Positions 16,301-59,400 of a stretch of 64,000 nucleotides of DNA are shown here, in pieces. Where the stretch lies: the NCBI GenBank assembly GCA_963693305.1, contig OY855906.1, positions 9,082,102-9,146,101 on the forward strand, written 5' to 3'. A model generated the notes under the pieces. The model saw nothing but the letters and a program-made list of their open reading frames with translations. It was not told the DNA's origin and did not search any database. The stretch's first letter is position 1. Every line of letters begins with the position of its first letter. The position numbers and the translations under genes are program-made. The DNA comes from Meandrina meandrites. Its lineage: Eukaryota; Cnidaria; Anthozoa; Scleractinia; Meandrinidae.

Positions 16301-19300
16301 CCATAAAGGAGAACCTATTTAACATTTGAATTAAAGATTCGAAGCTTGGTTTCAGTCCTGATTTCCTTGGACTTCCAGATGTTTCCGAGCATGTTAAACG
16401 CTGCCCTTGCCTTGCCAATTCTTGCTCCTACATCTACATCTGTACCTCCTTCTTTGTCAATAACACTGCCAAGGTATGTGAACGAGTCCACCTCCTCTAG
16501 CTGCTCTCCTCCTACTGTGATTGGATTCTCATTGGTAGTGTTGATCCTCATGACCTTTGATTTACCCCTGTTGGTCTTTAAACCAGTCCTTTCTGAAGTT
16601 GCTGCCAATCTGGTGGTCTTGCCCTGCATCTGGTCATGGTTATGTGAGAGAAGAGCCAGATCATCGGTGAAGTCTAAGTCCTCCAACTGTGTCCAAAGGG
16701 TGCACTGAATCCCATTCTTCTTTCCCTCTGTGGTGGTTCTCATAATCCAGTCAACATCCTTGACGGACACCAGTCCTGACATTGAAGCAATCTGAGAGCT
16801 GGCCTCTGTGCACCACTCTGCATGACATTCCCTCATAAGTTCGCTGAATGAGTGTAATGATCTTTTCTGGTATGCCATAGTGTTTAAGTAACTTCCACAG
16901 AGTTTCTCTGTCCACACTATCAAAGGCCTTCTCATAGTCAATAAAATTGACGTAAAGAGGCGAGTTCCACTCCAGAGATTGCTCTACTATTATGCGAAGA
17001 GTGGCAATATGATCTGTGCATGACCTGTCCTGTCTAAAGCCAGCTTGCTGGTCTCGTAGTCGGTTGTCGACTGCTGCTTTCATTCGTTCTAAAAGAATTC
17101 TGTTTAGGACTTTGACTTTGCCTGGAATCGATAAAAGAGTGATCCCCCTGTAATTAGTACAGACCCTCAAGTCTCCTTTCTTTGGTAGTTTGATAAGAAG
17201 TCCTTCTTTCCAGTCCCTTGCAATCTCCTCCTCCTCCCCGATGTTTTCGAATAATCTGTAGAGAATTTCAGTGGAAGTGCCTATGTCTACCTTGAGAGCT
17301 TCTGCAGGAACACTATCTATCCCAGCTGCCTTACCATTCTTCAGTGCCTGGATTGCTTTTCTAATCTCATGCCGTGATGGTTTAGCACAATTAATAGACA
17401 GCTCTGTCTTTGCTGGAGGTATATCTGGGGGGTCTTCTGGGCCTGGTCTATTAAGGAGCTCACTGAAATGCTCCACCCATCTCTTTAGCTGTTCCTCTGT
17501 TGATGTCAATATTTTCCCCTGCTTGTCTTTAATTGGCTTGTCTGTCACTTGGTATCTTGCAGCAAGCTTCTTAGTTGTATTGTAGAGCTCTTTCATATTC
17601 CCCCTTGCTGCTGCTTCCTCCGCTTGCCTGGCTAAATTGTCGATGTGGCTCCTCTTATCCCTCTTTATACTCCTCCTCACCTCTTGGTGGGCCCTTGTGT
17701 ACTGCTGTTGTGCTGCTGCTGCCTTACTTGCTCTTGGTCTACACGTGTTCAATATGGCCTTCTTCTTCCTTCTCTCTTGTATCTTCTGCAGAGTTTCTGC
17801 TGTCATCCAGTCCTTATGTTGGGTCGTTTTCCTGCCAACAGTCTCCTCGCATGTCTTAGTCCACATCTTCTTTGTCTGCTGCCACTTCTCTTCAAGCTGC
17901 ACGTTTTCATCATCATAAAGCTGCTGGAGCACCTGGTACCTGTTGGCGAGGTTGATCTTGAATATATCTGCAGTCTCCTTGTCCCTCAACAGGTCCACAT
18001 TATACCTTGTTCTAGTGGCAGGAGAAGGTGGTTTGCAGCGCTTTAGGCGTAGCTTGAGAGTTGCCAAAACCATATGATGATCTGATGCTGCATCTGCTCC
18101 TCTTTTGACTCTCACATCCTGTAAAGAACGCCTGAACCTCCGACATATACACACATGGTCGTATCTAGCAGTTTCAGAGCCACCTTAAAATTCCGAAAAT
18201 TTAAGGTGGCTCTGAAACCGCTAGATAGATTTTTTTCTAACTGTGCAAAAAGTTGCATCTTAACATGCTGGTCATTATTCAACAATAAAAAATGGGGGTC
18301 ACTGTGCTCGTTTTTGAGTTATAAGCACTTAAATGGAAAATTAAGGGTGTTTTTAACAGGCTAAACTTTTGCTATGGTAACCAGTGACGTCATGAAAGTG
18401 GCCACAACTTCTTTAGTAATGATTGGACATTTGTTTGATATCATTATTGTAGCAGCAACTGATAAGGATTTGTAGTACTGGCCCATCAAAGTTTAAGAGC
18501 TGGAATGTGCTGGAAACAATTGGGACTGGCATCGCGTTAAAAGGCCCTGTAAATTAAATTTACAATTTAAAACTAAACGTTAAACCTCGAACCTCGATGA
18601 TATATACGAATTAAAGATAAAAACACTCCTGTGATTGAATGAAACCACTTATATATTTCGTTGTTTATTACGATGCTATGTTTCTTTCTTGTAGGCACAA
18701 TTCTCAAGAAGCCCTCGATATTTTGCTGAAGAAAGGAGCTAAACCAAACGTTGCATCCATCTTAAGCGGTTGTACTTCTCTTCATGTTGCCGCGCGATTT
18801 GGTCACATACGGATCATAGAACGGCTGCTGATCGTGAAAAACTTGGATATTGACGCAACTGACCAGCAAGGAATGACTGCTCTTCACTTAGCTATCAGTA
18901 GAGGATATGAGAATATTTGTAAATATCTCATTGATAATGGAGCCGGTATTAACATAACCACAAAAGAGGGACACACTTGTCTTCATCTAGCAGCAAATGC
19001 TGGCAACACTGACATTGTGTCTTTGGTTATTCAGACCGGTAAGTAAGGGCGTTTGCACATTGCCAGATTCTCTATCTGGAGATGTAAAATGCGCAACATT
19101 TCTCCCAAGAAAGAAAACTTCTCTCTTTTCCTCTCACATTACGACACAGCAGAAAGCATGTTTTAATTTACTGATGTAAATGCAAAGCCATGCAAATACC
19201 TCTCCCTCTTTCTCTTTCGTTTTTTTTTTTAATGTATCTTGATGTTTGTACTTTTTCTCTTCTTTTCTTCCCCTTGTAATGTTTATAAATAAGGTAAAGT

Positions 19301-46000: not shown

Positions 46001-49000
46001 ACTTTATGACAGAACAAAAAATACTATCAGAAGTCTACTGGTAGTATGTAATTTCAGAATCCCTAAAAACAAACACATATCTTCCACTTCTATAGACTTT
46101 CGACCATAGGACATGAACCCGGCATAGTCAATCGATCGTTCGAAAATCGAACTCAATCGAACTCAATCCGTGGATTGAGTTCGATTGAGTTCGGCAATCG
46201 AACGAAATCGAACACCAGACTTTCAGTGAGTTCGATTTCCGAACAAATCGAATTCAATCGAACTCAATCGAACTCAATCCATCTGATTGTGTTCGATTGG
46301 ATTCGGAAACCGAACTCAATCGAACAATGGATTGCGTTCGATTGGCTCTGCCGGGTAAACCTATACAAAGCAAGCCCAAAGAAAGCTCATCAAAACAGGT
46401 TTTCCTTGTGCGTTTTTACAATTTATTTTTGTTACAGAAACCCCATTTATTAACTCTCCACGGCATTCAAAAGAACAGAACAGCAAACGTTGAAGCTGAC
46501 CTAATTGTCCGTGCTCGTTTGCAATTCGGAATGCACGGCCTGTCTCGCCTAATTTCCTTTAAAACCTTGAAAACTTCACCATCCTTGACGTCAAAGCGGC
46601 ATTTCTGGAAGCCATTTACTACACATTTGAAGCTTACAATCCACAGCGCATCTGAAGCCATTTCTGCGGAATTTCTTCGTTTACGAAAAACACGTACCCT
46701 ACACTCCGGGTTGAAGTAACTCGAGCTTCCAAGATCTGGTTATGGATTTTCAACGCCTATTTTGACCTGTTTTACACAAATCACGAGTTCGAAAATCGCA
46801 CATTCGATTGGGTTCGATTGATTTTTTTTCTTTTCGGTGAGTTCGATTTCGTTCGATTGCCGAACTCAATCGAACTCAATCCATGAATTGAGTTCGATTG
46901 GGTTCGATTGAGGTCGATTGAAATTTAGTTCGATTGGGTTCGATTGACTATGCCGGGCATGAACTATTTGCGGGTTTTATCTTGCCCATGATCCGCAGAA
47001 AAATTTTTGCGCAAAATAAATATTTATCACTGCCGTTGAGATAGCTGATGAGAAAATAGTATTTGATCGTTTGAAAGAGCAATTATTGAGAAATATACAA
47101 ATCATTCAGCAACTCGAAAAATAATTTTCCGAGTTTCCAACAGGAGTCAAACCCACGAACCTAAATTGTATGTTTAGTACAGATGAATCATAGGATTAAC
47201 TGTGACAAAACGTTTGGCACTTAGTCTACTAGAAGTAGTTTGTCGATGTTTCGCCCAAACACCAATTTGTTTTCCCACCCGAGTAACACATTTATTGTTC
47301 CAACATTCTATAGCAATTCGTCATTACTTCAAAAAAGAGCCCTCCTCTGTTTCAAAACCCGATATTAACCCAGACTTCAAACAGTTCATCAATAAATGCG
47401 ACTTGGATGGCAGTACGGCACTTCATTTGGCAGTACAGACGGGCTCCAAGGAAGTGTCCCAGGTCCTTATTCAGTATGGGGCTGATGTAAACTGTCAAAA
47501 CAAGAGCTTGCAGACACCTGTGTACTTAGCAGCGGTTGGAGGTCACCAGGAAGTGCTAAAAATGCTGATTTCACAAGGTGGAGATGTGAATGCAAGGGAC
47601 AGCCAACAGAAAACCGCCCTGCATAGGTATCTACTACTATTATCCATTACCAATAACCTGATAACCTTACAAAGAACGTTTAGCAGGACTGTTTCAACGA
47701 CAGCAATATTCAAATTTTTAAGCAGCCAAGAAATATTCATAGAATATGTTATTGCTTACTCTTTGACAAATGTAAAAAACACCGTCTTATAACAAAGGGA
47801 TTTAAACGGTGATTTGATTGGCTAGATTAAATTCTCGTTTTTAAAATCTAGCCAATCAGTCCATGTGTATGGAGGGGGATTTGGGACAAAAATCGGAACT
47901 GGGTCGTACCAGGACAACAATGAATCGTGTCCGCTGTCAATTTGATCATACCTCAAGGAAAATAGGTCGTACCATAAGGGAAATGGATCGTACTTCAAGG
48001 GAAACGGGTCGTACTTTTAAGGAAATGGGTCTTACCTTAAGGGCAATTGATCGCTCCTACAGAGAAACGATCGTACTTAAGGGAAATGGGACGTACTACC
48101 AGGGAACTTTGGGTCGTACATGGAAATGTGTCGTACCTCCAGATAAATGAATCGTACTTCGGGGAACTGCAATGGGTCGTACAGAGAAATAGATCGTAAC
48201 TCCGGGGAAGAATGCTCGTACCCTAGCATAAAGGAAAATGGATCGTACTTCAGTTGAACTGTACAGACATGTACGGGAAAATTGTGTCGTATCTCTAGTC
48301 TAGGAGAATGGATCGTAACGAAGAGTTATTGGGTCAGCAATCTGAATCGCAGGCTCGTTTTCCCTTACAACACGTGATTTCTCACCCGAGAAGAATGCTC
48401 GGTCGATGGCGCCATGTTTTCCTGAGTTTCTGGAAGTTCGTTCTCCGATCTTACAGAAAAGTGTTCTGGACAATGTCTAAAGAGAATGATCTTGTGAGAA
48501 AAACTTCTGAGGTTTTAAGAAGGGCTCTAAGTGAGCTAGAAACAAGCGCCGAACAGAGTTGTGGAAGCGAGCAAAATGAATGCCAAAACCGCGGGCAAAG
48601 TAATCAGAGCAGTGCTACAGATGAATTTAGGTAAGTGCCCATTTATATTTCACTATTTAGACAAGCCGGCTATTTTAAGTTTGCGTAAATAAATTAAGGT
48701 AGCTCATAGCAAATCTTGCCATTCAGTAAACCTAGAGAGATGCTTATAGAGCACTATGATGTAAGCTTACAGGCAACTACAATATTCATGAATATTACAG
48801 CTTCATACTGCATTTGCAGGAGGGCTTTTCCAGGACTTTGTTCTCGAAATGTTTCACGGCCAAGCACGTCAAGACAAAGGTCCTTGACACCACCTGTTGG
48901 AAACCCAAAGAAGAAAAAGGTTACAGGCTACAATGCACTGCACTTCCAGCCAGCGGAGACTTGGACTCATGACATATGTATTCTGGGAAGAAGAGATGAG

Positions 49001-52000
49001 GCCACAACACCTGACAGAGCAAGAAGTGAGACTTTGTGCAGAGCTGGATTGGGCAGGTTACGTGTAGTTTTCCCCAATAAGAACGCTTCTCATGATGAAC
49101 TCCAAAGGTTTCTTGAAGAGAAATTCCCAAAGCTCAAGGCTGGTGGAGGTTTTGAAGTTCTTAGGGCTGTAGGTGGAGGTGGAGGGCAGAGAAGTCTCAT
49201 TCCAGTACTGCCAACACGAGAGGGTTACACAGTGCCTCGCCTAAAAGAAACCTTAAGCTCGGCTGTAGGATACTTTCGACCTCTACAAGCAGATCTGGAT
49301 GAATCCCCAATGGAAGTAGCTGAAGTAAGAAGTAATTAATTTCTGGATTTTTAATCTTTTGGAAAATATTTTAGAATGGCAGTTAATATTTTTCTGAGCT
49401 ACTAACCATGCATGAATTTTAACCCACGTGAATATGTTTGAAGCCCACCCCCCTCCCCACCCGATTCCTCCCCACCCCCTCATTCCCTGGAATTTTGAAG
49501 TCCATGGGCATGCAGTTACAGTACATGTGCAGTACTCTGTAGTTAATAAAATTTAAATTGTTAATTTTAAACTTGTGCAAAAACTCTTTAAATTTCTCAT
49601 GTGCAAATGTATAATAATGATAACTGTACACATCACAGATCACAGCACCAAATCAGCTCTCATGCTTTTATACACAGTGAATTAAATACACAATGGACAA
49701 GCAAGACTAGTGTCTTGTAAATAAAAGGTAACTCATTGTTGATTAAATGTATTCTTTAACATAGGATAAGTGTGGTGGTCCTGCTGTCAAATGCATCCAC
49801 TGTGGTGAGGATTTTCATTGGATGGAAGTAAAGGACCATGTTGATGTTTGTAGCTCTAAGCCAAACAGGTATAGTGTGAAGTGTTCATTGTTTTTGCTTT
49901 AGGAAACGTTTTTTCTTTTGGTTCTGATTTGGAGAATCTTGTGTTTACAAGAAAGAACAGATTGAAATAATTCTCAAATTGTGCAAAAATGTGGTTAGAG
50001 ATTTTATTTGAATTGCATAAACAGGCACAAGCAGTTTACTTTTGGCAAAGAAACAGTTAAAAAATATATTTAAATACACTAGAAACATATTTTTGGTACT
50101 TTTTTTGCCATCCTCCAGGAGGAGGAGTAAACAAATATATTGAATTATAATTACTCTTCTTTTCAGCCAAAACAAAGGAGGCATGGCTGTGGAAATCAAA
50201 GGGGAAAAGATTGTAGAGGTAAGGTTTGCATTTTAGTTTATTTGTTCCAAAAATGTCCCCAAATCTTCAATGCTTAGGGACCGGTCATTATTTATGTAGG
50301 GGGGGGGGGGGGGAGGGGGAAGGTCAAGGCTGTTTTAGATTGGCTAGAGAGGGGCTCTTTTTTTCATAAAGAATTAATAGGGGTCACAATTTTTTTAGGT
50401 TTTGCAAGGAACATGAAGGAATCGTTTGACAGGAATCTGACGGCCTACAAACTGAATTATTTGTTTCAATATGTTCATGTCTTATTTAGATCATGTCAGG
50501 GAACTCATATGCCGTGTACATAAGTTTATCTAAATGGATTTTTGATAGCTACAATGCTGTGTTGATAATCCATGAGTTGAACTGCTGCTATATCTTACCC
50601 AAAGTATAAGCAGGATATATCAAGTCATTGGAGCCACAAGCATTGAATCTCAAACACTGGTACAACTTCTATTCTGGTTTATATTATAATACATACAAAA
50701 TACAACAAACAGCATCAGTTTCATCTCACCAAGTTTTATAGGGCTGTTTATATTCTGATTACAAAAAGACTGTTCACCTGAAATTTTTTTCGTGGCTTCT
50801 TCAATCTCCTGGCATCATAATCATTCACATTATTTTTCTTGTCGACACAAAAGTGACACTCACATGGAAGGAAAACTTCCTTTTTTCTTACTGAATACTA
50901 CAAATCTTAGTGATTTATATGATTTTCAGTGGTCAGATAAAATATGACTTTCGTTGTCCTTTTTAAAGATGTAACCTTTTTCTCATTTTTTTATAGTCAG
51001 ATGATTCATTCTTAGTGGAATGTTTAAAGTGTTGTAAACTCATTCCTTGCAATAAGTTCAGAGCTCACCAGAACAGCTGTGCACCTTGTAAAGTAACAGG
51101 TCATCCCACCTCATCATCAACAACAACTCGTACAGGTGAGTGCAAAAAGCAGATTGAAATACACCAATCACAGCCCACTAGCATGACCTTCTGAACTTGG
51201 GGGCTTATTTGTGACAAACACTGGTATGCATCGTTTTTGATTGGCTCCTGTCAAACAGTACATCGAAAGGCAATGCTGAAAGATGGACATATAGTAGTAG
51301 GATAGCAGCTTTGCATGTGACACTGAAAGCGAGTGTGAATGACCTTCTTTCTGGTAAGAAGTACTTGACACTCATCAACTGAATTGGAAAAATGGCAATA
51401 ATGTTGGATTAATAATATGAAATGTTTTACTTAGTCAGTGTAGCTCTTCAACTTTTATTTAAAATTAAAAAGCTTATGTACCAAAAAATATTACTTTTGT
51501 AAAATTATATCACATAGATTCTCAAGACACTGCAGTGGCAGAACAGATAAGACGTGACAGAGACCTTGCAGAACAACTGCAGAATGAGGAAGTCGAAGAT
51601 GATCAAGTACTTTTTCACTGTGCAGAAAAATATACACCAGATACTCCTCCCACAACACTTCTGGAGGCTCTGCAAAACATCAAGAAGTCAGTGACTTCAA
51701 GTAATCCTGGTGACATTAACTTCTATGTCCAGCGGTCAAGAGTGTGGAAAAATGTGGTGGAAGAGTTGAAAACTAGTGAGCTTTCAACCTGCAAGATTTC
51801 TGTTGAGTTCATTGGAGAGTGTGCTGTGGATACAGGAGGGCCAACAAGAGAGTTGTTTTCTTTAGTGTACCAGCAGGTGATGGGTGGTAAGCTGACTAGA
51901 GGATCGCCACCAAATATAACATTGTCACACAACCAAGAAGCTCTAGATGCTGGTGAATATAAAGCTCTGGGACAGCTGATAGCCCTAGCATTACTAAATG

Positions 52001-55000
52001 AAGCCAGTGGCCCACATTTTTTCAGTCCTACCTTTGCACACTACATTCTGGGTACAAAGTGCAACACTGACCCTTCCAACCTGGTAAATGAAATACCTGA
52101 CGATCAGTGGCAGTTAAAGGAGAAGTTGAAAGTCCTTTTAAACTGTGAAGATGCTGCCAATTGGGATGATGCCATTCTACAATTTGAGGAACGGTTTGAC
52201 ATGGGGATCACCAAAGCAAAGATAAATATGGAGGAGAGGAATGATGTCATTAAGGCCACCAATAAGCACATCATGATAAGCAGTGTTGCAGAGGAAATCT
52301 TCAGTTTCCAAGAGGGACTGGGAACGTTTGGAGTTTTGGATGCCTTGAGGCAATACCCAGACGAGAGTGTGAAGCTCTTTATTTACTCACCGGTGACCAT
52401 CCAAGATATCAGGAAAACATTCATTCCAGAGTTTTCCATTGTTGGATCATCCAAACGGCAGTGTGAAGAGACAATAGTCTTTAACTTCCACCAGTTCCTT
52501 AAGCAGTGTGACAAAGGAAGTGTCGAACGAAGTTTCATTGATGTTACCTCCTTGGAATCCCTAGTCACTGAGGAGGATATCAAGGAAATTCAACTGACCT
52601 TACCAGATGTCCTACAGTTTCTGACTGGTGCCAGAAACATACCTCTAGGAGGACTAGACGGAAGCATAGTTTTTAAGCATGATGCTTTTAAAGGTGCCAG
52701 AGTTAGAGCCAATAATTGTGCACTACAACTGATCATTCCTGTAAATGAAAGATATTATTGTGAGGAGCCTGCAAAATTCGTTTCAAATTTTGCTGATGAC
52801 ATTTGCGATGGCCAAGGCTATGGCCAAGTTTAACACTGAACATGTAGAACATGAAGTTTATCAGCAGCGTCAGTTGTGTTAGGTATTTTCTTTTGTGAGC
52901 AATCAGACAGTAGTTTCATGTAGTCTGTAGCAACAGTTTGTTGTTTCAGGTTTCAGTAACAGAGGATCGATGTACCTGTTTTGAGTTTTGCTATCAAGTA
53001 TTTATGTTGAAGGTTAAATCAATTCTTAGGCTGAATCTGTTTTCAACGTAGGTTTATCTGTTTCGACATGAAGATAACAGTCTTTGTATCAGTTAAACAA
53101 TTTAAGTTTAACTATTGTGATTTCTTTTAATGAATTGTTTTAAGTGATTAAAAGAGTGTTATTGACATTTTCAGAATGAAACAGATAAACCTAGGCTGAG
53201 AACATTATTTCACCTGAAAACACCTGACCCACAACATGTATTTCTATTGATGTTTAATCTATTGTTGTTAAAAGAATTGATCAATTTAAAGGCTGTCAAG
53301 TTGTTGTTGCCAAGATAAAATACTTTTGATAGTTTTAGTGAAAATTGTTCCACAACATATATCTTTAATGATGTTTTTAATGTATTGTTGTTATAAGAAT
53401 TGATAAGTTGTTGTTGTCAAGACATAATACTTTTGATGAGCAAAAGAAAGCAGTTGTTAGTTCTATCACTTTTAGTATTGCCTAGAAATCACCACTAGTA
53501 CTTTAAAAAGTGCATTTAAAGATAATGAGTACTTGGATCTGGAATCTGTCTTCAGTTGGCTCTTATGGAATTGTTCATGTTTGCCATGGATAAAGTTATT
53601 CTGTTGTGCTCCCACCACCTACCCCACCTTGCATGCTTTTCTTTGGTTGGTATTCTTCAGGACTTGCCAGAAATATAAAAAGCCTTACTGTTACAGCATT
53701 CTGGTGTACACAAACACTGAACCCCTCAAACAGCCATGTGTAATTTTCCCCAGGTATAAAAAATATATTATTTGCAAACACAGCAGTTGAGAAGCTACTC
53801 TTCATCTATTATTTGCTACAAAGCAGCAAGCATCAATGTATAGTTCAATCCCAAATCCATCAGCCTCCTGAAGTGGGTCAATGTTTTCTTTGAGATCATC
53901 CAATTTCTCATCTGTGAGTGGGCATGAAACATCATCTATCCAAACATTACTTTCTGGCTGTGGCTCAGTGATTTCTTCAGAACAATCTATCCCATATTGA
54001 CTCCAGTCCTGGTGAAAGACAATACCAGGGTTGATGTCATGCACTTGTTTTTGACTCCCATGGTGACTCCCATGCAACTTTTTGCAAAGTTTAAAAAAAA
54101 TTCCTGGAGCTGTTTCAGAGCCACCTTAAATTTTCGAAAATTTTAGGCAGCTCCAAAACACCTCCACGGAATATTTTAAACTTTGCAAAAAGTTGTACCT
54201 TAACATGCTGATGATTATTCAATAATAAAACATGGGGGTCACTGTACTCATTTTTGAGTTATGCACACTTAAAGCTAAGATTAAGGGTGTTTTTAGCAGG
54301 TTATACTGTTGCTATGTTTACCAGTGACCCAAGAAAATAACTACAATTTGTTTATCAATGATTGGGCACTGACCCATCAACGTATGAGAGCTGAAAAGTG
54401 CTGAAAACATTGTGATCCTCCTTATGTTAATACAACCAATTGAAAGAGGTTGTCATACCTGTGGTGGTTGTTGTTGAATTTCCCTTGCTGAAGAGTCGAG
54501 ACTTTGTGAAATGTCATACAGACCTCTTAACCATAGTTGGTTTGGAGATTTGTTCCTCTCTGATCTTATGGGATGATTATCCCAGCCACTTACAAAGTGT
54601 TCGAGGTGTCTGTTGATCCGGGGCAAAAACACATACTGTAGGCAGAACATGTGGATATCATTTCCCAAATCCAAATAGCCGGCTTCTTCCAAATAGCAAA
54701 ATAGAGAATAATAGATATACAGGCAGCCTACAAAGAGATCACGCCAAAGTCTTTCAATGCGTTGATTGTGTACACTAGGCCCAGTGATAAAACTCCCACG
54801 GTTTGGTCCTCGCAAAGGATGTGTCAACATGTACCAAGCACTGTCAACATTTTCTACTCCTTGATCAGCCCTGACCCTAGAAGGCAATCCATGAATTGAA
54901 ACAGCTCTCTCAAACACCTTTAAGACTGTCCCTGATTTGTTGTTACAGTTGCAAGAAAGATACATTATTTTTCTTGAATAGCCATCAATGGCACCGTGTA

Positions 55001-56378
55001 TAACAAATCCCCATCTGAAAAAGATGGAGAGAGAGATATTGAATAACCTGATTAAAAAAAACACAATGTCTACACTTGGGTATCAAAATTCCTGGACTTA
55101 AGAGGATGATGCTTTTCCTTTTTAAAAAACAGAATTTTACAAGAAAAGCCATTGCTAACAAATTCTTTATACACCAGGGAGTTCATTAAGGTGCGCAGAA
55201 AAGAGCACAAGGTAGCAAATTTCTTTATGTTCTATTTGAATTATGAAAGTAGGCGGGTGCTGACTCTTGTATATCCTATGCTGTTACCCAGGTCCCGCCT
55301 TCTAATGAGAACCCTAAATACACTACAGTAGAATCCTGTTTTCTCAGACCCTTAGTTTTGCAAAACACTGGACTTCTCAAGCCAATTTTCGCTTCTCTTG
55401 GATAGTACTTCTCTGTAACTTTACCCCGATTTCTCAAACCTTTCGATCTCTCCAACCAATTTCTACTGTATTAATACTACAAAAAAAATATGAATTGGGG
55501 ATTATACATCAACCCAAACTGAATTTTTAATTATCAATAGATTAGTATTATAATGTAGTTGTTCCAACCTAATAAGCTTATGGTTCCCATCCATATGCCA
55601 CAATGCCAAGGGTCCTCTAACATTATAGACTCTTCTATGAGTGACTTTCAGTTGAAGGGCTCGAATTACAATACCATCTGGATCCACTCTCCTCATTGAT
55701 TCTCTAACTCTGTATTCCTGTATTTTAATACCTTTGGAAAGCAGATGACCACGCATCATTTTGTAGCCACAGTTTGGAAATTGCTGACAAATGTCTCTTA
55801 CAGTAATGTCAAGAGAAGTGTCACTTATATCAGAGTAGGTGCTCCTTACTGAAATACCAAACTCTTGGAGACGTCTGTGGATAGTTTTTTCACTGACACA
55901 CAACATCTTTGCTATATCACTTGCTTTGAAACCATAGTCCAAAAATAACTCCAGCTGGTCTTGTGGTATGTAAAACCTTGGCCTCCCTCTTTGACATGAT
56001 CTATCTAGGCCGGGTAATCTTAAATTGTTGGGCTCAACATTATTCTCAAATTGCATGAGAAGATGCCTAGCATCTTGCAGAAGTTCAAGTAACCTTTCTT
56101 CTCTGCTGAAGCTGCTTGCAAAACGTACTATCAAAGAAATTAACCAGTCTATTTTGTAAGTTGCATAGTCAATGATGTTTCCACAGGTCTCATTATTCTC
56201 TATGTGTCGCAGAACATCTTGAATTACTTGTCTTGAGTTATTTGAAAGTAACTCCTGTGGGCTATTATTTTGACCTTCACCCTGAAAACTTGTGGAAGAC
56301 ATCACTCCTGTAGTATAGAGATTAAAAGTTTAGAAGTAATTTGTGGTTAAACTTTTTAAATCCTCAATTAACTGTTTC

Positions 56379-56439
<61 letters not shown>

Positions 56440-59400
56440 CAAAAAACCATTAACTCAAAACCTTTTCAAATTAACACAATGAGGGTAAAAGCAAGATTGC
56501 TTGATGGACTGTGTATAAATAGAGTGACTAAGGTAAAAAAATGCTAAACTAATCCCTAGATATTCTAAAAATACTAGTAGATATAATCTGTTCTTGGTAA
56601 AAAAAATCTTAAACCAATGTGTTAATTATTTCCTTTGTCCCAGATTGTAATGATCACATACAGATAAAATTGAAACTTCCAACATCCATCCCCAGGCAAC
56701 CCTTGGGCATTTGAACTTTTGGTTGATCAAATTCCCATCCCTAGGGTAAAAAATTGTGTTCAAATGCCCTAGCTAATGGGCAAATTTGTCGATCAAATTC
56801 CCCTGCCCCGGCTTGGGACATACAGTATATGGGAAAAATAAGCAATAGGACAGAAGTGTATTTCTTTTCAGAGTTTGACTTACATGTACTTGCAAAATAT
56901 TCATAACTAAACAATATATTTGACTTTAAATGCAGAACACACAGGCCATGATGTCACAAGAGAAAAATCCTCTACCTTCTCATCTCCACCATGATTTAAT
57001 TTAGGAGCTGCCTCTAATGTAACAGTAAAAACCGCAAGAAATTATAGACACAAAGTCGAGGCAATTTGCTGAAATCCCCACCACCCCTTCACATATAATT
57101 TAAAATTCCCCACCCCAATAACAACTATTGAGGTCAAATTCCGACCCCCTGGGCACAATGATGAGTCAAATGGCCACAGTATGCCCTCCGGTAGGGGGAT
57201 GTTGATTGATTGGTTAATTGACAACTTTATTGAGAGAGGGTGGCATGTAACAGAAAATTTCTGATGAGCTTGTGGCCCTCTATTTTAAAACAATTACAAT
57301 GTGATTTGATCAGTACATGAAAGTATAAAGCAGTTAGAAAACAGATATGCAGCAAAGAAATAAATTGTGCTATTCCAGAAAATATCCATACCCTACTACC
57401 AAAGGTTTTTTGGTTTCAGTCCCCCACCCCTCTGGAAATTCCAGTTAAGCCCCAATGCTGGTTTGTGGCTGAGGTCACAGCAGCCATTGTGGTGAACTAG
57501 AACAAAGCACTTTCCTCCGCTGGGAACTTAACTCTTTTATCATGCAAATTCTGCAAAACAAATTGATCTTCCATGGGATGGGGATGGATATTTTCTGCAT
57601 TTCCCTTCACGCACTGTAATTGACCCTTTTTGGGAAAACTGTGTCGATGTAAAAGCCTATATATCACGGGTTAACAAATCACACAGAATACAGAGTACAA
57701 GTATAATACAGTAAATACGCCAAAAAGTGGGCATATAATGTTTTACACAGCATATTAAAGTGAAATTATCAACGAGTTATTATTTGTATTCCTGAAACTT
57801 TCACCTCTCATCTTTGGAAAAATTAAAATTTTGAACTGTTTCAGGAATTTCCCGAGGTTAAAATTTTTCAAAACTCGACGTTTCGACCAGTTTTAGTAGT
57901 CTTCCTCAGGTTGTTGTAAAATGTTTTCAATATGGCAGATCGTTTCAAATAATTGAAAACAGTTATTAAGCTTATTTGTTTACTGATATTGAAACATTGA
58001 ATAATCCGCAATTTTCTACTTTTGTTTGTTTTTCAAATTAAAGACATGAAGAGCAAGCAAACACATATAAATGTTAATCTCAAACGGACTTACCTAGATT
58101 GTGCTTTCTTGAAGAGAACTTCGACTCGAAACGCACTCGAAACGACTCGAAACAGCTACTCGAAACAATATGGCGACGAGAGGCAGAGAGCCTGCGGTTC
58201 TGACTGCTGACCCAATTCCTCTCCGGACGCTCCATTCCCCTTGAGGTACGACCCATTTCTCTTCTAGGTCCGCTGTATTATGATCCATTTCCCTGGCGTT
58301 ACGATCTATTAACCCGTACGACCCAGTTCCCCTGAAGTACGATACATTCTATTCGGCGGTACGACACATTTCCATGTACGTACCATTTCCTTATTTGATG
58401 ATCGACCCATTTCCCTAAAAGTACGACCCGTTTCCCTTGAAGTACGATCCATTTCCCTCATGGTATGACCTATTTTCCTTGAGGTATGATCAAATTGACA
58501 GCGGACACGATTCATTGTTGTCCTGGTACGATCCAGTTCCGAATTTTGTCCCAAATCCCCCTCCATACATGTGTTCCCAGAGCCGCCTGTTTCGATGTTT
58601 GTCGTGCTTAGGCCCCGCCGGTTAAGAGAGATAGGCGGCTGGCTCTGGGACGAGAATGATTCCGCGCCTGAATAATGGAATGATTTGTCATTCATCGTAT
58701 TTATTTTACTAATCGCTTCGTTCTCCTATATATCAGTGCTGCTTCATTGGGATCCGTGAAATGCATAGAAATTCTCCACGAAAATGGCGCTGAAATTGAC
58801 GCCAAAGACCAGAATGGCCAGACGCCTTTTCACCAAGCGGTAACCGCAGGACAGAGTGACTGCGCTAAACTGTTCATATCATTTGGCGCGAAGCTGCCAG
58901 CTCAAGACAAGCGCCTTCGATGCTGCATTCATCTTGCTGTGGAACAGAGCAGAGAGGAGACTCTGAGCATGTTGCTGAGTGAGACTGGGTCCGACTTGGT
59001 CAACATACCTGATCACAAGCAGAGAACGTCTCTTCATTACGCTTCTTACGCGGATAACTCGAAGGTACTTCTGGGTATTTTACTTTGTATTTATTTTGAT
59101 CGGGAGTATTCAAACTATTAAAAATTGTTACTTAATATGTTTGGGTTTCTTTTGAGACGGTTTTTCAGTAGTCGGTTCATGTAAAAAAGGGAATATCGGG
59201 AAGTGAATCTCTTTACATTTTATCAGTTTTGCCTTGGTACACTTGAAACGAACTGCTGCTCGTGAACTAATGGAAAACACGAATTACCGTATTAAGTAGA
59301 TTTCTTCAAGTTATCCTAAATTTGAGGACGTAGCTTCTTTATTCTGTTGTCTAGTTACTAGAGCTGCTACTTGCAACTAAAGTCAATGGATGTGTTCGAG

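Follow-up and report, generated by a model that had tools for sequence, protein, structure and literature searches.

IS3EU elements and the element in Meandrina meandrites

The known accessory enzymes of DNA transposons act for the most part on DNA or chromatin, as do TET/JBP, SET domain and anti-silencing proteins. The IS3EU superfamily has been described as having TA..TA ends, usually 6-bp target duplications and a DDE transposase without an HHCC motif, and the main text of the published description makes no mention of HECT or ubiquitin. IS3EU elements carrying TET/JBP genes are known from rust and truffle fungi (PMC12730594); in the available part of that work, the rust families have TAYGG..CCRTA ends and 6-bp duplications, the fungal elements carry further accessory genes, including an alpha-kinase gene lying opposite to the transposase, and HECT and ubiquitin are not mentioned.

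Here we analysed a stretch of 64,000 nucleotides from the coral Meandrina meandrites (contig OY855906.1; hereafter the window) and find that positions 47868-58567 form a complete DNA transposon with TATGG..CCATA ends and, between them, a transposase gene and a HECT gene. The ends, the duplication length and the transposase domain all fit the IS3EU type, an assignment that a previous sequence-only reading had suggested. The ends and the 6-bp duplication resemble those of the rust families in particular, and the HECT gene lies opposite to the transposase just as the alpha-kinase gene does. The accessory enzymes differ, however, being a dioxygenase and a kinase in the fungi and a HECT protein in this animal. 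Our literature search, which covered sources other than Repbase Reports, bioRxiv and most subscription journals, found no description of a HECT-bearing IS3EU element or other transposon, and the publications pairing a HECT domain with a DNA transposon concern, in the parts available, other matters.

Structure of the element and its two genes

The 10.7-kb unit had been read from sequence as having two long inverted ends and a perfect CATGTG duplication, and each of these features holds. Its borders are exact to the base, with identical copies of CATGTG directly flanking the ends TATGGAGGGGGA...TCCCCCTCCATA (Table 1). The inverted arms match at 97% over 166 nt without gaps, and a gapped alignment reaches ~350 nt. 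Within the inner left inverted repeat are subterminal repeats of ~21 bp containing G-R-T-C-R-T-A-M, which are possible candidates for transposase binding sites.

Table 1. Features of the transposon in the window; all exon borders, of the HECT and transposase genes alike, are predictions.
Feature	Position	Strand	Basis or remark
Target site duplication, left copy (CATGTG)	47862..47867		same as 58568-58573
Left terminal inverted repeat	47868..48213	+	97% match across the outer 166 nt; subterminal repeats further in
HECT exon 1, predicted start ATG 48473	48473..48630	+	start backed by diverged C12 relative
HECT exon 2: N-terminal domain common to Porites and Stylophora proteins	48820..49324	+	sequence comparison
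HECT exon 3: first C-x2-C-x11-H-x3-C pattern	49765..49868	+	gene model, pattern
HECT exon 4	50167..50218	+	gene model
HECT exon 5: second C-x2-C-x11-H-x3-C pattern	50997..51135	+	gene model, pattern
HECT exon 6: both lobes of the HECT domain (N and C) with Cys720, stop	51518..52833	+	profile, alignment, structure model
Transposase exon 3 and stop	53802..54008	-	gene model
Transposase exon 2: rva_4 integrase core, D295 and E332	54459..55014	-	profile, alignment
Transposase exon 1: helix-turn-helix-like region (under Pfam cut-off), D238	55569..56302	-	profile, alignment
Right terminal inverted repeat	58215..58567	-	arm comparison; also contains subterminal repeats
Target site duplication, right copy (CATGTG)	58568..58573		same as 47862-47867

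The predicted transposase is encoded on the minus strand in 3 exons without a stop and is 498 aa long. It matches PF24764 at 228 bits and rve weakly, under the cut-off of that profile; an HHCC-type match was not found in the Pfam scan. The triad is D238/D295/E332, with 36 residues separating D295 and E332 (DD36E); of 22 aligned transposase rows, 21 keep D238 and all 22 keep D295 and E332. The intact DD36E transposase of the sequence-only reading stands, with a length that we put at 498 rather than 521 aa; the relative P0027 starts at the same MSS as the 498-aa model.

The HECT gene model occupies 6 exons on the plus strand and has no internal stop, with GT..AG at the predicted borders of all five introns. 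An upstream ATG at 48308 would add 55 residues to the 757-aa protein, giving the 812 aa proposed earlier. We prefer the ATG at 48473 because a diverged relative (C12) resembles the protein that begins at the later ATG; the six exons, intact frame and catalytic cysteine of the earlier proposal are retained. PF00632 matches this protein with 40.8 bits (cut-off 23.9) over profile positions 24-187 of 306. Cys720 falls at the catalytic position and aligns with the AREL1 cysteine, and a Cys is present in all 21 alignment rows that reach this column (6 of 27 rows stop short of it). The best AlphaFold model of the HECT exon (pLDDT 81.6), the sole one used for the fold search, contains a bilobal HECT fold including the C-lobe; the other four had pLDDT 58-63, and an initial model from 5 sequences had pLDDT 35. 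On this sequence and model evidence, the second gene probably encodes an active HECT ligase.

The catalytic domains of HUWE1 and AREL1 in the PDB share with the window protein the HECT fold and a DxGGPxRE-like motif in the N-lobe at ~15-19% identity. The window protein differs from both in its N-terminal part, in its two C2HC patterns and in being encoded by a transposon. The C-x2-C-x11-H-x3-C spacing occurs twice, with no Pfam match there, and may correspond to that of the UBZ4-type ubiquitin-binding zinc finger of RAD18. A HECT-like fold in a parasitic genome also occurs in the R349-type proteins of Mimivirus and other giant viruses, a remote structural match at 11-14% identity. We reject a viral or bacterial origin, as no relative was confirmed among 52 pattern matches in IMG/VR viral contigs or 31 in genome contigs.

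Copies, linked pairs and diverged relatives in the host genome

We found 10 insertions with the same ends in the 551 Mb host genome, each with its own perfect 6-bp target duplication and no two alike; the left end of one insertion carries a single change at base 16. Eight are full length, and the nine large copies are 99.93-100% identical. The transposase frame is open in all eight full-length copies and the HECT frame in all nine large ones, and in copy C14a the transposase is deleted and the HECT gene still open. Two of the full-length copies (C6 and C2a) have no substitutions between them; given this young age, the element may still be mobile. At all nine large copies, in unrelated sites, the HECT gene lies between the ends rather than outside them, and it is almost certainly an integral second gene of the element. 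The packaging proposed by the sequence-only reading, which had suggested a search for other copies with both genes, is thus borne out.

The HECT gene could instead be an unrelated host gene that adjoins transposon ends or is overlapped by them, and 30 HECT loci, C14a being one, are indeed distant from every scored PF24764 match. The copies contradict this explanation, as does a second family with the HECT exon inside its ends (C12, below), and we give it practically no weight.

Throughout the genome, at least 31 of 61 HECT loci lie within 15 kb of a PF24764 locus, at least 29 of them within 4 kb, and the linked pairs are convergent (tail-to-tail) in 31 of 31 cases. These counts are lower bounds because the scoring covered 150 of the 313 transposase candidates. 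With the window family left out, at least 23 of 52 HECT loci are linked, against a mean of 0.42 and a maximum of 4 in 2000 coordinate shifts, for which the extent of some contigs was approximated by their last match. Chance proximity is thereby ruled out, and the ten insertions with their own duplications, together with this linkage, indicate more than chance. HECT does not accompany every member of the transposase family, since 105 of 137 scored transposase loci had no PF00632 match within 15 kb, including seven loci scoring 241.9 bits each; the Pfam profile is, however, weak for HECT proteins of this type (32.8 bits in the genome scan).

The second family (C12) has ends TATGGAGGGGGAT, the duplication AGTGAT and, inside the ends, an open HECT exon 33% identical to that of the window; its transposase shows 66-45% identity. 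This diverged element rules out a recent single capture of HECT. Two pairs form a further lineage (lineage 2): C6, with a transposase 35% and a HECT protein 26% identical to those of the window, and C4, with a transposase 27% identical and a HECT protein giving no tblastn match to that of the window. Inverted repeats were not found around either pair in the stretches read, and one of the two loci has N in place of the second catalytic D.

DNA transposons are well known to pick up passenger genes, and HECT domains are otherwise found mostly in host enzymes, so that a host gene acquired in one or several captures, and of no benefit to the element, has to be weighed. We consider this improbable: the relatives at 26-33% identity have open HECT frames and keep the catalytic cysteine, the gene is open in every large copy, and a single layout is found throughout the 23 or more linked loci beyond the window family.

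Possible role of the HECT protein

Our main reading, with a probability of roughly 0.6, is that the window contains an IS3EU-type transposon present in near-identical copies, whose second gene encodes a predicted working HECT ligase that likely tags host proteins silencing or blocking the element. Both genes would be expressed, and the transposase would move copies in trans, the gene-less copy included. The HECT protein would load ubiquitin on Cys720 and pass it to a substrate picked by its N-terminal part, which may be a host factor involved in silencing or repair. It is reasonable to infer, as suggested earlier, that ubiquitin control belongs to the element's life cycle, and the recurrence of the HECT pair and the kept catalytic cysteine strengthen this view. 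The tail-to-tail pair at no fewer than 23 further loci makes it likely that protein tagging is part of the spread of the element. As the element may still move, the ubiquitin-ligase question is testable.

The odds that the target is a host protein rather than the transposase fall a little short of even. The HECT protein could act on the element's own machinery, ubiquitinating the transposase or strand-transfer complex either to limit overproduction or to remove the complex once insertion has taken place, allowing repair to be completed. The uniform tail-to-tail layout is expected of a transposition partner, the pair is found again in a transposase lineage that has diverged deeply, and transposase and HECT identities drop in the same order over C12, C6 and C4; a companion retained beside its transposase across such divergence could equally well be a transposition partner or a counter-defence protein. 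The many transposase loci without a detectable HECT nearby argue against this alternative, as does C14a with its open HECT gene and no transposase, although a single recent copy says little. We regard action on the element's own machinery as possible but on the doubtful side.

We tentatively propose, with not quite even confidence, that HECT is an ancestral, integral second gene throughout one lineage of IS3EU-like transposons in animals, placed tail-to-tail with the transposase, that the host ubiquitin system is used for spread, and that part of the crowd of HECT genes in cnidarians, and perhaps other animals, is transposon-borne or transposon-derived. If so, a ligase kept with one transposase family over deep divergence would offer a new handle on the fight or cooperation between transposon and host, and would account for animal HECT gene models whose role is unknown.

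Proteins of Porites evermanni and Porites lobata and a chimeric protein of Stylophora pistillata (P0005-P0007) contain the N-terminal domain of the window HECT protein at 65-66% identity (66% over 115 aa for a Porites protein). Below the Pfam cut-off, P0005 and P0007 show CUE matches that are absent from the window protein. A HECT-like stretch can be seen in P0007 by eye only, and P0005 has a HECT match of 22.7 bits, just under the Pfam cut-off of 23.9.

The window element and its copies

The complete DNA transposon in the window is flanked on either side by CATGTG. Its terminal arms begin TATGGAGGGGGATTTGGG, match at 97% over 166 nt and contain ~21-bp subterminal repeats; once gaps are allowed, the match extends for ~350 nt. 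The left 533 bp contain 11 forward occurrences of a loose core motif of these repeats, and the right 418 bp contain 9 in reverse; the remainder of the 64 kb holds 6 (forward) and 2 (reversed). According to the available portion of PMC10045372, IS3EU elements have TA..TA ends and, as a rule, 6-bp duplications. The TET-carrying families of rusts have TAYGG..CCRTA ends and an alpha-kinase gene opposite in orientation to the transposase, as described in the accessible part of PMC12730594. In the literature surveyed, as far as its sources were available, we found no HECT-carrying cut-and-paste element; Repbase lay outside the survey, so an entry may exist there.

Two predicted genes are oriented tail-to-tail within the element: a transposase on the minus strand (3 exons, 498 aa, stop-free) and a HECT gene on the plus strand (6 exons, 757 aa, every intron GT..AG), whose product is predicted to be a working ligase. 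Transposase exon 2 matches the integrase core PF24764 (rva_4) at 228 bits. The catalytic residues of the transposase, D238, D295 and E332, the last two separated by 36 residues, are conserved in 21, 22 and 22 of the 22 rows aligned (the window protein and 21 chosen relatives). Among the matches listed (the best 120 of 2203), the closest named transposases are those of octocorals (Dendronephthya, 57-60%; records named Paramuricea, 58-59% over 60% of length), followed by other cnidarians, hemichordates, sponges and fishes; the transposase tree comprised 22 sequences. The N-terminal domain of the HECT protein is common to Porites and Stylophora proteins (65-66%), whose HECT and CUE matches fall just below Pfam cut-offs or were made by eye. 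These relatives make an anthozoan host likely.

Searching the 551-Mb genome with the outer arm yielded 20 scored matches, which resolve into ten insertions with none left unpaired. The 6-bp duplication is perfect and different at all ten; nine were identified by motif, and that of insertion C2b, AAAGCC on both flanks, was read from its flanks since one left-arm base differs. The sequence-only reading of a transposon carrying its own HECT gene is thus borne out by further copies with the same ends and both genes: eight copies are full length (10.70-10.71 kb), each with transposase and HECT open. In C14a (8559 bp), a 2155-bp deletion took most of the transposase, and HECT is still open, as in all nine large copies. 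C14b (1350 bp, duplication CGTGTC, perfect) is a gene-less foldback of two inverted right ends (709 and 663 nt) and seems to be a derivative that was mobilised. The existence of these short copies suggests that both genes are dispensable in cis.

Identity among the nine large copies is 99.93-100%, with substitutions at 14 columns in total; their other differences are length changes, mainly of a poly-G tract and a short tandem repeat. The transposases of the eight full-length copies show no amino-acid differences, and C6 and C2a, both full length, have zero substitutions between them. HECT residue 305 is K in the window copy alone and T in the remaining eight large copies.

Coordinates of features in the window and in the genome containing it (G000)
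Feature	Location
Transposon	window 47868-58567
HECT residue 305	window 51091
Row of paralogous genes	window 18.8-62.4 kb
First paralog compared	window 19.5-20.6 kb
Second paralog compared	window 32.3-35.3 kb
Clustered short repeats	window 46136-46906
Retroelement reverse transcriptase	window 16315-18154
Insertion C14a (L021)	G000:C14:5635451-5644009
Insertion C14b (L022)	G000:C14:6821629-6822978
Four similar HECT loci	G000:C2:31316632-31727628
Deeper pair L069+L070	G000:C6:27786000-27800000
Deeper pair L071	G000:C4:23322500-23331000

HECT-transposase linkage and the role of the ligase

Across the genome, 150 of the 313 PF24764 candidates were scored as matches (at least 137 merged loci), and the HECT domain PF00632 gave 101 matches (61 merged loci). 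We found that 31 of the 61 HECT loci lie ≤15 kb from a scored transposase locus, 29 of them ≤4 kb, and all 31 pairs are convergent. When the HECT coordinates were shifted at random 2000 times, the number of linked loci averaged 0.51 and never exceeded 4, versus 31 observed. The window family accounts for 8 of the 31; when its nine HECT loci are removed, 23 of 52 are linked, and shifts give a mean of 0.42 and a maximum of 4. By a hand count of equal match profiles, the 31 loci represent about 17 families. A profile from 27 HECT sequences, run on 30 transposase loci with 1.5-kb flanks, added two convergent HECT pieces (L047, E 2e-5; L040, weak, E 0.002). For 105 of the 137 transposase loci, PF00632 finds nothing within 15 kb; HECT is thus either common among transposase loci but not universal, or else missed by the PF00632 model. 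On contig C2, four similar HECT loci within ~0.4 Mb are distant from every scored PF24764 match.

A second family was read to both ends in a 9.78-kb element on contig C12 (L067+L068), with ends TATGGAGGGGGAT..ATCCCCCTCCATA, arms that agree at 99.8% across 482 nt, and the duplication AGTGAT; masking covers 1472 bases of the stretch. Its HECT exon is a single open frame of 442 aa that contains the motif ANTCAPSLNFPV and is 33% identical to the window HECT; the N-terminal domain is 53% identical and the transposase 45-66%, depending on exon.

The ligase may act in the element's favour, and the removal of host proteins by which the element is silenced or blocked is the likeliest route. We place the probability of a host target at roughly 0.45. 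This target is favoured because the window and C12 families resemble each other more in the N-terminal domain than in the ligase domain, and because fungal IS3EU accessory enzymes (TET/JBP) are, in the accessible part of PMC12730594, thought to counter silencing. The fixed HECT-transposase layout and the divergence of HECT in step with the transposase instead speak for the main rival, control of the element's own transposase by the ligase, which we regard as possible and rank below a host target.

Two pairs of a deeper transposase lineage (L069+L070 and L071; transposase identity 35% and 27%) also have open HECT frames with the cysteine in place. In L069+L070, the transposase-like gene is tail-to-tail with the HECT frame, and an upstream 414-aa frame looks by eye like a UBX (ubiquitin-like) region. 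In L071, a transposase with N replacing D at the second catalytic position adjoins the HECT frame. These pairs support an old linkage and are only candidates as complete transposons. Inverted repeats were not found around L069+L070 (within 14 kb) or L071 (within 8.5 kb); the former is for this reason possibly an old or host-kept pair, and the latter is a candidate host-kept pair.

The insertion site

The element lies between two ankyrin-like exons of a host gene, after which comes an ion-channel-like exon (match of 24.9 bits, narrowly short of the Pfam cut-off of 25). In the first paralog compared, the equivalent two exon segments are ~345 bp apart, and joining the window flanks without the element leaves ~360 bp; the paralog's spacing could be how the empty intron looked. 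The equivalent segments of the second paralog are 2.4 kb apart. Paralogous genes with ankyrin and ion-channel exons, presumably TRP-like, form a row in the window. Short direct and inverted repeats cluster left of the insertion site, and the retroelement reverse transcriptase is encoded in two overlapping frames (RVT_1, DUF6451).
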